Assembly: GCA_947361615.1 (NCBI GenBank) | Contig: CANAJP010000003.1 | Location: 17,432-81,431 of the forward strand | Direction of reading: 5' to 3' | Origin: an uncultured Candidatus Melainabacteria bacterium | GTDB taxonomy: Bacteria > Cyanobacteriota > Vampirovibrionia > Gastranaerophilales > Gastranaerophilaceae | Length of the DNA: 64,000 bases | In this document: piece after piece, positions 17,054 to 64,000 of the stretch | Numbering within the stretch: position 1 is the stretch's first letter | Layout: every line of letters begins with the position of its first letter | The notes under the pieces: model-generated | Databases searched by the model: none | Told to the model about the DNA's origin: nothing | Seen by the model: the letters and a program-made list of their open reading frames with translations, nothing else | Translations under genes and position numbers: made by a program

Positions 17054-17512
17054 TTAAGACACACCTTTTTTCAAAATTTCGCGCATTTGCAAATAACGGT
17101 TCAATTCGTCCTCAAAACGCGGCATATAATGATACATTATAGGATTTATGAACACTCTGTTTCTAAACGGCGCGTCTTCCAAATAAACCTGCGGAATAAC
17201 ATTTATCATAAATTCTATACACAAAGGTGCATTCATTTGATTATCCACATCTATTTCAATAAAATTAAATTTATCTTTGTATCTGCGTTTTAATACAAGC
17301 CAATTTGGTTTAAATTTTTGACAGGATGAACAATCTTTTGCAAAAAAGTATATCAATGCAGGCTTACCTATCTCCTTAACTTCACCGGTGTTTGTCGTCA
17401 CAACCTGTTTTTCCGCCTCTGCAACTTCTGATTTTCCACCAAGTAAAAATCCTGCTAAAAATCCCGCCAAAAGCATAACAACAGCTAATATAATCAATTT
17501 ATATTTACTCAT
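17054..17512 (-). CDS. Membrane-anchored thioredoxin-like protein
   Basis: N-terminal TM, FFAKDCSSCQKFKPNW (CxxC), EIDVDNQ, cis-Pro VIPQVYL. Confidence 0.8.
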   Translation of the reverse strand: MSKYKLIILAVVMLLAGFLAGFLLGGKSEVAEAEKQVVTTNTGEVKEIGKPALIYFFAKDCSSCQKFKPNWLVLKRRYKDKFNFIEIDVDNQMNAPLCIEFMINVIPQVYLEDAPFRNRVFINPIMYHYMPRFEDELNRYLQMREILKKGVS

Positions 17513-18764: not shown

Positions 18765-18778
18765 CCCCCCCCCCCCCC
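18765..18778. repeat. 14-nt poly-C tract
   Basis: Direct reading. Confidence 0.95.
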
Positions 18779-18821: not shown

Positions 18822-19097
18822 ATGGGATTAGGAATTAAAAAAATTATTGCGGCGGTAAAAACATTAAAAAGTAATCCTTTTAGTAAGGCTAAACTAAAAA
18901 ATTGTAAACACAAGATTGATGTTAACGCTGCTGATCTATTTTCAGAAGCAAAACCAAAGAAACCTACGGGGAATTACAGAGTGTTTCCAGATAAACCTGA
19001 ACCAACATCAATGACATTAACTTATCAAGATTACGACGCGGAAAAGATAAAAAACACAGTTGCTGCTTGGTCACAAACAATTAATACGAAAGTTTAG
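18822..19097 (+). CDS. Hypothetical small protein
   Basis: 91 aa, strong RBS AAGGAGG before ATG. Confidence 0.6.
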   Translation: MGLGIKKIIAAVKTLKSNPFSKAKLKNCKHKIDVNAADLFSEAKPKKPTGNYRVFPDKPEPTSMTLTYQDYDAEKIKNTVAAWSQTINTKV

Positions 19098-36717: not shown

Positions 36718-36804
36718 TGTCATCCTGAACTCGATTCAGAATCTATCCAGTGTGACGGGCTATCGGTTTCGCTTGCCAGATTCCGAAACAAGTTCGGAAT
36801 GACA
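36718..36804. repeat. REP-like composite palindrome
   Basis: TGTCATCCTGAACTCGATTCAGAATCT ... AGATTCCGAAACAAGTTCGGAATGACA. Confidence 0.8.
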
Positions 36805-54281: not shown

Positions 54282-55208
54282 TTAGCGTTTAACACATTGA
54301 ACATGATAGTTATCAGCTTTTGGCACAGAGTATTTCATCCCAGCATTAGGGCCAAAAACCCATGCATGAGTGCTATCTTCCACCGTTGAAGACCAACTGC
54401 TTAATGTAGTGTTCCAATCAAACAATGTATTACTATAAAACATTGACAATAATTCTTCAATATTCGGCAACCTGTATTCCGCATCAAGCTTAGAACATTC
54501 TTTAGACGCCTGTGAATACGAATATTGAGCATCAAGCATACGAACAGGTTGAGGCATTACAACATTTGAATCACTAGAGTAAATCGCCGAAATAACCCCT
54601 ATATCTTTACCTACAGTATTCGGTCCTTTTGAACCGTTTAAGTCAAACACAAAATGCGCACACATCTGTGATTTCATATAAAGCCCCGGCTTTCCAGAGT
54701 TGGAAGCGCCCTCAAAAAACATACTTGACGAAGTACAATTAGGATTGTAAAAAGTAAGTATAGATTCTCCGTTAATTGTTTCAAAAGCCGCAGCATTAGT
54801 GTTTGAAATCAAAAAAACATTTGCAGGGATTCCAGGATTTAAGTCTGACATTTTACGCGGCAAATTCATCTGGCTGCCCCCAAGAGTTGTTATTTTACTG
54901 GCTAGCCCGCAATCAAACACATGGTCTTTGTCGCAAATATTGTTAATTTTAAGCACTTTTGCTAATCCAGTCGTAATAAATGTTTCTGCGGCTGTATCGT
55001 TAATAGATGCCGAACTGCTTGTACTGACCGTTTCATAAGTTCCATAACCATTCAACGACGGCATAAGCGCGATTGCCTGACTGAAACGAGCGTATAAGGC
55101 TTTACGTTGAGTGTTCCATGTGCGTTCGTTAATGTTACCAGTAAGCGACGGTAACGTTATCGCTGCAACCACGCCGATGATTGTTAGGGATAAAAGAATC
55201 TCTGCCAT
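54282..55208 (-). CDS. Prepilin-like protein, DUF1566/lectin-like C-terminus (copy 1)
   Basis: Frame upstream of listed ATG encodes GGGGSLLTG/FTMAEILLSLTIIGVVAAITLP, a prepilin cleavage-like site; C-term YRLPNIEELLSMF ... HVQCVKR; leader ATG 55271 is interrupted by an in-frame TAA. Confidence 0.8.
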   Translation of the reverse strand: MAEILLSLTIIGVVAAITLPSLTGNINERTWNTQRKALYARFSQAIALMPSLNGYGTYETVSTSSSASINDTAAETFITTGLAKVLKINNICDKDHVFDCGLASKITTLGGSQMNLPRKMSDLNPGIPANVFLISNTNAAAFETINGESILTFYNPNCTSSSMFFEGASNSGKPGLYMKSQMCAHFVFDLNGSKGPNTVGKDIGVISAIYSSDSNVVMPQPVRMLDAQYSYSQASKECSKLDAEYRLPNIEELLSMFYSNTLFDWNTTLSSWSSTVEDSTHAWVFGPNAGMKYSVPKADNYHVQCVKR

Positions 55209-55229
55209 TGTAAATCCGGTTAAAAGGCT

Positions 55230-55241
55230 CCCCCCCCCCCC
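55230..55241. repeat. 12-nt poly-C tract (poly-G in pilin copy 1 leader)
   Basis: Direct reading. Confidence 0.95.
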
Positions 55242-55293
55242 TGCTTAATTCAAGACATTAAGTTTTTTCATAATTTACATCCTTTCTCTTGAT

Positions 55294-58074: not shown

Positions 58075-59163
58075 TTAACGTTTCACGCATCTTACATAAT
58101 TAGAAGGCACACTATACGAACTGGCTGTTCTCAAATATCTGTAATGTAAATACATACGCTTACCATCTGTCGGATAAAAAGTTGATGTCCAGTATCTATT
58201 ATCAGGTAAGGCTCCCATTAATTTTGAATTTATAGCGACAGAAGAAATTTCCTCCAGTGACGGTAATCTGTAATCAGGATCTTGCGCATTACAAGCCCCA
58301 CTTACATTAGACGCATCAATTGCCGTTGTAGAGGTATCATGCAAATTTGGCAATGGTGAAACAACCACACTATCAGTCGGGTAAAATACAGACATAACTC
58401 CGATATCTTTGCCCACAGTATTCGGGCCTTTTGAACCGTTCAGATCGTAAATCATATTAACGCACACTTTTTTCTGCATATAAATATAATATGTTTCGGC
58501 TAATAATGATTGACAATTAGGATTATAAAAAACTGCAATACTTTCACCATTTTGCGTTTCAAAGGCCGCAGCTTTTGAATTAGGTATAGAATAAGAAGCG
58601 CCGGCATCTCCATATGTACTGCCAACTTCATAGGAAACATTGGCAGAATTCAAATCCCCGAATTTTTCAGGGAAAGCAATTTTTACCCCATCTAGAGTGG
58701 TCAAACTTGTCGGAATTCCGCAGTCTGCTATATTACCGTTACCGCATATATTATTAATTTTCAATACTTTTGAAAGTGCAGAAGTGATAAAAGTTTCGGC
58801 TAAAGTATCTGTTGTAACACTGCCACTTGCATCTTCTGTAATCGTCCCATAGCCGTTAAGCGCAGGCATCAGGGCAACAGCCTGCGACATTCGAGAATAA
58901 AGTGCTTTGCGTTGAGTATTCCAGGTGCGCTCGTTAATATTGCCTGTTAATGATGGCAATGTTATCGCAGCTACTACTCCAATAATTGTTAGAGATAAGA
59001 GTATCTCTGCCATGGTGAAGGCTATTCGTTGACCGGCAGCCCGCAAGCCAATTATAGAACCCGCTTGACCGCGTGTGTCATGCTGAACTCGTTTCAGCAT
59101 CTGGCCAGCGTTGCACTCTACCGGTAGCGTTGGACAGATCCCGAAACAAGTTCGGGATGACAA
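58075..59163 (-). CDS. Prepilin-like protein, DUF1566/lectin-like C-terminus (copy 2); native start probably ATG 59248, out of frame in this assembly
   Basis: IAFTMAEILLSLTIIGVVAAITLPSLTGNINERTW, DLNGSKGPNTVGKDIG, YRLPSLEEI ... YVRCVKR. Confidence 0.8.
   Translation of the reverse strand: MSSRTCFGICPTLPVECNAGQMLKRVQHDTRGQAGSIIGLRAAGQRIAFTMAEILLSLTIIGVVAAITLPSLTGNINERTWNTQRKALYSRMSQAVALMPALNGYGTITEDASGSVTTDTLAETFITSALSKVLKINNICGNGNIADCGIPTSLTTLDGVKIAFPEKFGDLNSANVSYEVGSTYGDAGASYSIPNSKAAAFETQNGESIAVFYNPNCQSLLAETYYIYMQKKVCVNMIYDLNGSKGPNTVGKDIGVMSVFYPTDSVVVSPLPNLHDTSTTAIDASNVSGACNAQDPDYRLPSLEEISSVAINSKLMGALPDNRYWTSTFYPTDGKRMYLHYRYLRTASSYSVPSNYVRCVKR
59076..59162. repeat. REP-like composite palindrome inside pilin copy 2 leader
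   Basis: TGTCATGCTGAACTCGTTTCAGCATCTG ... CAGATCCCGAAACAAGTTCGGGATGACA. Confidence 0.85.
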
Positions 59164-59202
59164 GTTGGTGTGTAACGCCCCACTAGCTATACCTAAGAGA
59201 GG

Positions 59203-59215
59203 CCCCCCCCCCCCC
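59203..59215. repeat. 13-nt poly-C tract (poly-G in pilin copy 2 leader)
   Basis: Direct reading. Confidence 0.95.
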
Positions 59216-59273
59216 TGATAATGACGATACGTTTTTAATTAATTTCATTTATTTACCCTTCCTTTCTACATGC

Positions 59274-61851: not shown

Positions 61852-63039
61852 ATGAGTAAGAATGTTTTTATTTGGGTATCGGTTATTTTCTTAGTGATTG
61901 TTGCGTTATTTTTACGTCCTCAGAAAAAATCCGATGAACTTGTTTTCTGGACGCTTCAAATGCGCGATTTTTCACCTTATATGGAAAAGGTCATCACGAA
62001 TTTTGAAAAAGAAAATCCCGAAATAAAAATCAAATGGGTAGACATTCCATTCTCCGAGGGTGAAAAACGAACTCTCGCCGCGATTTTGAGCGATACTCCA
62101 CCGGATTTAGTAAACCTTAACCCTGATTTCTCTGCGTTACTGGCGCAAAAAGGAACTCTCACTGAAATTGAGAACTCAGCGCTCACACAATTTCCGCAAG
62201 AAATCATTAACAATATGAAATACAACGGTAAAAACTATTTTATCCCGTGGTACGCAACATCAGCTCTGACTTTTTATAACAAAAAACTTTTACCTAACCC
62301 TCCGAAAAACTACAACGAAATTTTCGCGCGCTGCCATGCAGGTGTTACGAAACCGTTTTTAATGTTTAACTTTGCAGAAAATGATTCAATGCTAAAACTT
62401 CTGAACAAATACGGTATAAATTCAGCGGAAATGATAAATTCACAACTGGCCATCGATCTTTATAGCACAATTCAGGAAGCTTACACATCCGGATGTTTCC
62501 CGAAAGAAAGCCTTACTCAGACTCATAGAGAATCGCTAGAAAAATTCATGGCGGAAGAAATTTTAATGTTTGAGGGCGGTTCCAACTTTCTTAATCTTAT
62601 AAAAGAAAACGCACCGCGCACATTTAAAAATACGGCCCTGAGCGCACAACTTACAGGCGAAACTGGCAACTTCAACTTCTCAATGATGAATTTTATTATC
62701 CCGATAAAATCAAAAAAACAGCAAGAAGCTTTAAAATTTGCACTTTTCCTAACGAACGAAGAGAACCAGCTTGAACTGGCAAAACTTACAAACATTCTGG
62801 CGGTAAATAAAAATGCATTAAACAATGAATTTTATACAAAATCTGACGGGGATATTTTCACGCAAGCCCGCGTTTTCAGCGCAAAACAGCTAAAAAACAT
62901 TCAACCTCAGCCGTTTTACCCTCATAGAAAAGAGCTTATAACATTAATTAACAACGCGACCCAAAAAATAATACTTAAACAGGACGCTATAGAAAACGTC
63001 CTGAATAAGCTTAGAACTGATTGGAGCAGATTAAATTAG
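61852..63039 (+). CDS. ABC transporter sugar-type solute-binding protein (family 1)
   Basis: N-terminal TM/signal, FEKENPEIKIKWVDIPFSEGEKRTLAAILSDTPPDLVNL, YATSALTFYNKKLL. Confidence 0.88.
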   Translation: MSKNVFIWVSVIFLVIVALFLRPQKKSDELVFWTLQMRDFSPYMEKVITNFEKENPEIKIKWVDIPFSEGEKRTLAAILSDTPPDLVNLNPDFSALLAQKGTLTEIENSALTQFPQEIINNMKYNGKNYFIPWYATSALTFYNKKLLPNPPKNYNEIFARCHAGVTKPFLMFNFAENDSMLKLLNKYGINSAEMINSQLAIDLYSTIQEAYTSGCFPKESLTQTHRESLEKFMAEEILMFEGGSNFLNLIKENAPRTFKNTALSAQLTGETGNFNFSMMNFIIPIKSKKQQEALKFALFLTNEENQLELAKLTNILAVNKNALNNEFYTKSDGDIFTQARVFSAKQLKNIQPQPFYPHRKELITLINNATQKIILKQDAIENVLNKLRTDWSRLN

Positions 63040-64000
63040 CGTTGAACACACCTTACTTTGCAATAAGACGTTACAGGATAGTTGCATCGCTCACCATTAG
63101 TCAATAAAAGCGACCAGCCATGGTCTTTATCAATTTTAGTTCCGGACCAATATACATTATGTCCGGAAGTTTGACTTTCACCTGTCATAGCCCGCCAGTT
63201 ATAGAACATAGAACTTAATTCGTCAATATTAGGCATTCGCAATTCACTGCTCAAATCTTTACAATACCCTAAAGTTTGTTTTTGATTTTTATAAACACTG
63301 GATTCTTTATTATAAGGCATTGGAGCGACCACCACCGGATCTGACGGGTATAAAACTGAAATAAACCCGATATCTTTACCGACAGTGTTCGGCCCCTTTG
63401 AACCATTCAAGTCATACAGAAAATTCGCGCACATTAACGACTGAGAGAAATATCTGCCTTTACCGGTAATAGGCCCTTGACAGAAAGGATTATAGTGCAC
63501 CAGAACACTTTCTCCGTTAGCTGTTTCAAACGCAGCCGCCTTAGAAATTTTCTGACTATAAGTGCCGGAATATGATATAGTAGTTCCATCAGCCCCACCA
63601 CCATATGCCCCCGAATACGAGCCGTTAAACATGGCGTTATAGCCTGATAAATCAATAATATCCGAGAGTAAAAATGCAGAAGCCCCATTTAGAGGAATCA
63701 TCTTAGAAGCCAATCCACAATCAGCTAAATTTGTAGAATCACAAATATTATTTATTTTAAGGACTTTAGATAATCCTGCTGTGACAAAAGTTTCAGCGGC
63801 TGTATCTGTTGTGTCATCAAGAGTACCATAACCATTCAATGCAGGCATTAATGCTATTGCCTGTGAAAATCTTGCATAAAGTGCTTTTCGCTGAGTGTTC
63901 CAGGTGCGCTCATTAATGTTGCCGGTTAACGACGGCAACGTTATCGCAGCTACCACACCGATAATGGTGAGAGATAAAAGTATCTCTGCCATGGTAAAGG
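63036..64000 (-). CDS. Prepilin-like protein, DUF1566/lectin-like C-terminus (copy 3, leader truncated by window edge)
   Basis: ...FTMAEILLSLTIIGVVAAITLPSLTGNINERTW, DLNGSKGPNTVGKDIG, LRMPNIDELSSMF ... KVRCVQR. Confidence 0.82.
   Translation of the reverse strand, partial: FTMAEILLSLTIIGVVAAITLPSLTGNINERTWNTQRKALYARFSQAIALMPALNGYGTLDDTTDTAAETFVTAGLSKVLKINNICDSTNLADCGLASKMIPLNGASAFLLSDIIDLSGYNAMFNGSYSGAYGGGADGTTISYSGTYSQKISKAAAFETANGESVLVHYNPFCQGPITGKGRYFSQSLMCANFLYDLNGSKGPNTVGKDIGFISVLYPSDPVVVAPMPYNKESSVYKNQKQTLGYCKDLSSELRMPNIDELSSMFYNWRAMTGESQTSGHNVYWSGTKIDKDHGWSLLLTNGERCNYPVTSYCKVRCVQR

Follow-up and report, generated by a model that had tools for sequence, protein, structure and literature searches.

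Poly-G tracts in the leaders of a large pilin gene family suggest slipped-strand phase variation in uncultured Gastranaerophilales

Pilin copy 2 of the window (the whole 64,000-nucleotide stretch analysed, positions 17,432 to 81,431 of contig CANAJP010000003.1) carries a poly-G tract in its leader, and we propose that this tract acts as a slipped-strand translational phase-variation switch for what is one of roughly 90–100 pilin genes in the genome. We assign this reading a probability of about 0.83; switching itself was not shown, as there were no reads. The window comes from a Candidatus Gastranaerophilus-type MAG of 1.83 Mb in 108 contigs (G000). The initial annotation saw a single gene, and copy 2 belongs to a set of about 100.

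The switch region of copy 2 was read directly on the minus strand. A Shine-Dalgarno-like AAAGGAAGGG (59256–59265), assigned from the sequence, precedes an ATG at 59248 and a 33-nt leader (59216–59248, MKLIKNVSSLS, letters ATGAAATTAATTAAAAACGTATCGTCATTATCA). Then come 13 G (59203–59215), with CCTCTCTTAGG immediately 3′, a 183-nt spacer (59020–59202) that holds an inverted-repeat element, and the mature pilin (58075–59019, FTMAEILLSLT..., 314 aa plus stop), with a pilin N-helix and a C-terminus predicted to be C-type-lectin-like. No stop interrupts the pilin frame between the tract and 58075, the spacer included, where the gene's own stop lies. The ribosome-binding motif, start codon, tract length and loss of frame given by the initial annotation were all exact on re-reading, and the gene is OFF as assembled, as it had stated: the ATG frame reads MKLIKNVSSLSGGGGASLRYS and stops after 21 residues, the pilin frame being displaced from it by one base. 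Counting overlapping matches, the window held 21 runs of at least 7 G, whereas shuffled sequence gave 0.96 on average and never more than 5.

Two further copies lie on the same strand. Copy 1 (FTMAEILLSLT..., 54282–55214) has 12 G at 55230–55241, in register with a leader ATG at 55271, although a TAA at 55247–55245 interrupts the leader, and it looks locked off in the current assembly. Copy 3 (63036–63998) lacks its upstream part because the contig (G000:C3) ends at 81431.

Using residues 1–59 of the mature protein as the query, we found about 97 near-identical N-termini in G000 (104 matches once weaker ones were included) and at least 100–107 in each of five congeners. The family is shared by Candidatus Gastranaerophilus phascolarctosicola and other Gastranaerophilales MAGs. 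DNA identity between copies was mostly about 66–81%, and identity of the N-terminal protein mostly 92–100%. Almost all copies whose upstream region could be read had the same observed anatomy, namely a Shine-Dalgarno motif, an ATG, a short Lys-rich leader, G9–G14, a spacer and FTMAEILLSLT, with a AGAAAGGA-type motif before the leader ATG in most copies. The anatomy recurred in five congeners, and a second genus (G028) had an equivalent design, with a G10 tract and FTLAEVL pilins. In 53 extracted G000 copies a run of 7–14 G lay between leader and pilin; the remaining extracted copies had mostly lost their upstream region at contig ends. This recurrence weighed most in confirming the observation made on copy 2. 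Class A leaders (e.g. MKNKIVNICA) were 30 or 33 nt long in G000 and 27–33 nt in congeners, and class B leaders mostly 46–50 nt. The JAMPIJ records (G003), titled 'Fusobacterium sp.', contained the Gastranaerophilus pilin family throughout and were placed in the window's genus, so the title is probably wrong.

The usual minimal class A spacer was 15 nt and encoded PLLTG, SSLTG or a similar prepilin-like ending, and longer spacers reached several hundred nucleotides, with inverted-repeat elements inside. Spacer length turns over quickly between near-identical orthologs: in a G002/G004 pair with 99% identical mature pilins the spacers were 582 and 369 nt. The inverted-repeat elements (GTCATCCCGAACTTGTTTCGGGATCTG type) were interspersed and inserted in frame in leader spacers; the element in the copy 2 spacer, of which 59135–59161 is one arm motif, recurs in closely similar form at 36777–36803 of the window. 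These in-frame elements are reminiscent of Rickettsia palindromic elements. At the G028 loci L356–L371 the spacer after G10 often opened with TAGTCTCCTTTT, which is complementary to the upstream AAGGAGA ribosome-binding site, and the two might pair as a hairpin, a possibility that remains untested. Tractless pilin leaders (locus L277 of G004 and others) contained repeated AFTMA-like segments, e.g. MKHTAFTMAGAG...AAFTMAD..., a pattern that suggests leader growth through duplication of the cleavage region.

Evidence that these tracts are translated came from reading frames. Across 89 spacers of at least 45 nt, stops occupied 12 of 5,495 codons in the pilin frame (confined to 4 genes), compared with 329 and 297 in the other two frames. 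The spacers are stop-free only in the pilin frame, and therefore translation enters from upstream, via the tract. Among tract-bearing copies 36/149 were in frame, compared with 27/28 tractless copies, the latter found by pattern (Fisher p 2e-13); the lone exception had a G run interrupted by substitutions. In tractless paralogs the leader that follows the Shine-Dalgarno motif could be as short as 4 codons from the ATG (MKKA^FTMAE) and ran straight into the pilin frame. The initial annotation's logic, that a one-base slip would switch the gene, fits this pattern of paralogs nearly always in frame without a tract and mixed with one. Our own idea that indels in leader, tract and spacer compensate one another to hold the +1 phase was partly withdrawn: the 29-nt leaders with G14 look as if an A bordering the tract had been substituted by G, and two copies with a spacer length of 1 mod 3 had stops in the spacer.

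The encoded protein resembles a type IV pilin. F1 and E5 were invariant in 71 family sequences, and the sequences had the hallmarks of type IV pilins or pseudopilins, with K/R-rich leaders, G/A before F, Glu at +5 and a long hydrophobic N-helix. For mature copy 2, AlphaFold2 with 71 family sequences as input gave a model (pLDDT 89.6) with a pilin-like N-terminal helix (3–50) and a globular part. The best solved fold match was the Legionella Lcl C-terminal domain (PDB 8q4e; probability 1.00, E 0.01, TMt 0.58). Most of the next matches were C-type lectins, none with an E better than 0.01, and matches to the Lcl_C Pfam family scored 20–28 bits, below the cut-off of 34.9. On this model the best reading is a type-IV-pilin-like protein with a C-type-lectin-like head, for which filament assembly, surface display and adhesion are inferred. 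T2SSE-type assembly ATPases were found in G000. A prepilin peptidase (Peptidase_A24) was not found in the G000 assembly and was present in five congeners. That it was not found in G000 counts against the switch reading, as does the length of the leaders, since it is unusual for as many as about 150 residues to precede the cleavage site.

In the switch that we propose, replication slippage would alter the number of G, and a ribosome starting at the Shine-Dalgarno-preceded ATG would reach the pilin frame at only one G count modulo 3, the other two counts yielding short peptides of about 13–66 aa. The predicted prepilin-peptidase site (G/A^FTMAE) is downstream of both tract and spacer, so that an ON gene would give the same mature pilin whatever the length of its leader. 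Removal of the leader is inferred; if it occurs, the product would be insulated both from the switch and from the rapidly changing inserts, since both sit in the part expected to be cut off. Each cell would then display a small, shifting subset of the C-type-lectin-like pilins, and a few tractless pilins would be made constitutively.

The assembled phases were strongly biased. Counts (in frame : +1 : −1) were 7:40:3 in G000, 7:24:2 in G001, 2:10:0 in both G002 and G004, 6:10:1 in G005 (where some tracts contain N, and only N-free tracts were counted), 12:5:8 in G003 and 6:1:24 in G028. The +1 OFF phase prevailed in five genomes and the −1 phase in G028, and the one-phase bias in G000 held across different leader lengths (permutation p < 5e-5). 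This is unexpected under simple random slippage, as a free switch should fill both OFF frames. Our preferred guess, which is untested, is that selection for mostly-OFF repertoires acts together with direction-biased slippage set by a lineage-specific tract length. The same lean towards one OFF phase is what programmed recoding would have in its favour, with the out-of-frame state being the expressed one: constant, infrequent slippage of the ribosome or RNA polymerase on the G run would then yield a low level of every pilin. We consider this unlikely, although it is the best surviving alternative: all phases were occupied in G003 and the bias was reversed in G028, tractless paralogs are plainly in frame, and 24% of tract copies are in frame already. 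No more probable, in our judgement, is a mixed form in which the biased out-of-frame state is a deliberate default, ribosome or polymerase slippage on poly-G giving a basal output of about 100 pilins at once and genetic slippage lifting single genes to full expression.

Slightly less credible again is the explanation that the real tracts are in frame and that assembly or sequencing adds one G. These are short-read MAGs whose contigs break at tracts and end in junk poly-G or poly-C, and the modal tract length varies by assembly (13 in G000 and 12 in G003). However, 4/7 non-pilin coding tracts (G13–G14 or G11) in the same G000 assembly were in frame, against 7/51 pilin tracts (Fisher p 0.02); the seven were our own selection of tracts flanked on either side by long open frames. 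In G028, moreover, the deviation is −1 instead of +1. Because of this opposite sign and the in-frame non-pilin tracts, neither a uniform +1 error nor one shared recoding direction is sufficient. A G13 tract in G004 was also in frame, and the supposed error would have to spare tractless genes merely through their having no tract. Even with lengths off by one, hypermutable coding poly-G would remain in about 100 genes.

Copies that are OFF as assembled were intact, with a mature ORF of at least 280 aa in 126/126, and on this count a pseudogene reading was ruled out. Over the first 59 codons, the 43 OFF copies of G000 had a mean pN of 0.06 and a saturated pS of 0.74, with a pN of 0.52 in the C-terminal part, and these codon comparisons point to strong purifying selection on them. 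Orthologs in G003 and G000 had 12 vs 13 G in one case and 11 vs 12 G in another, at 84–85% identity, a comparison between species and not strains; G002/G004 orthologs also differed in phase. Intact OFF genes and one-G differences between orthologs match what a reversible switch would leave, and reversible slippage within the population is inferred from them, not observed. The initial annotation's proposal of homopolymer slippage as the mechanism thus gained support from spacer coding, from orthologs one G apart and from intact, selected OFF copies.

A large family with a conserved N-terminus, a variable C-terminus and many OFF copies would also be expected if those copies were recombination donor cassettes like Neisseria pilS, with the tract as a recombination landmark. 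That is very improbable, as the copies are dispersed, each has its own Shine-Dalgarno motif and ATG, and spacers hold their frame; moreover, the saturation of synonymous sites from copy to copy means that the conserved part has undergone no recent gene conversion. Least tenable is a downstream start producing pilin independently of the tract, which the initial annotation had named as a result that would refute the switch: a mechanical ORF listing does choose TTG 59163 in copy 2 or the ATG of MAEILL, but by inspection neither has a Shine-Dalgarno motif ahead of it, initiation at MAE would remove the cleavage site, and such a start was excluded for the family by pilin-frame spacers stop-free over hundreds of bases and by minimal 5-codon spacers without a start codon.

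Long G runs were not confined to pilin genes. Within the window's genus, six of seven genomes each had about 87–129 runs of at least G10 and the seventh, G006, had none; counts per genome were 30–90 in several other genera of the family and 0–3 outside the family. Poly-G or poly-C junk at contig ends inflates the G000 count; contigs ending in such runs at or near pilin tracts (C1:96923-96986, C2:82277-82343, C4:1-49) probably reflect assembly artefact. Long poly-G also occurred in non-pilin coding genes of G000 (L125, L337, L338, L343, L344, L348, L350), G004 (L214) and G005 (L167), some of them glycosyltransferase-like, some in frame and others not. A putative wider set of contingency loci beyond the pilins can be proposed on this basis. 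In the window, a C14 run on the plus strand (18765–18778) lies just upstream of a small ORF (18822–19097, plus strand); the same site has G16 in G003 (L185) and G14 in G004 (L217), and the run could be a promoter-located, transcriptional length switch. Loss of mismatch repair was considered as a cause of the tracts and rejected, MutS being present.

Most pilin genes have their own run of about 12 G, which appears to act as an on/off switch, and the set of surface fibre proteins that a cell makes could vary accordingly. Confirmation of switching by reads would make this an unusually large repertoire of homopolymer-switched surface genes from a single family: a tract was resolved in 50+ of the about 97 pilins in 1.8 Mb, and the bacteria are uncultured gut members of a non-photosynthetic cyanobacterial lineage. 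It would also be a natural experiment in which the switch and fast-changing inserts are confined to a leader expected to be cleaved. In the open-licence literature we found no earlier description of phase variation, homopolymer switching or pilins in Gastranaerophil* or Melainabacteria.

A close parallel is gonococcal pilC, in which a homo-guanine tract in the signal-peptide region switches expression (PMC5354566, citing Jonsson et al. 1991). Neisseria pilC1/pilC2 are pilus-related genes whose N-terminal signal region likewise holds a poly-G tract; one-base changes switch translation and the tract-encoded part is removed, as is inferred for the present genes, but there the genes number two and encode a tip/base protein that has a secretory signal peptide (PMC5354566). 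Here, there are about 100 pilin paralogs with prepilin-type leaders and spacers of up to several hundred nucleotides before the cleavage site. The simple-sequence-repeat phasomes of Neisseria and Campylobacter are similar in having genome-wide homopolymer contingency loci, mostly in surface genes (PMC5953494, PMC11868660), with about 15–19 poly-G tracts per Neisseria genome by that study's own cut-offs (PMC5953494). Unlike those phasomes, the runs of at least G10 in six genomes studied here number about 87–129 per genome, the G000 figure being inflated by contig-end junk, and are concentrated in one pilin family, and the lineage is not known as pathogenic. Neisseria pilE/pilS resembles the family in its pilin diversity, many copies, conserved N-terminus and variable C-terminus. 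In that system, recombination feeds silent cassettes into one expression locus, whereas here every copy comes with a start site and a proposed switch of its own. Legionella Lcl is a surface adhesin that ends in a C-type-lectin-like fold, comparable with the one predicted here; unlike in Lcl, the predicted fold is fused to a pilin N-terminus, scores under the Pfam cut-off and comes with no collagen-like repeats that we could see. The proposed mechanism is already known from pilC and the phasomes, and what differs is its scale within one pilin family, the lineage, and its location in a leader expected to be removed.
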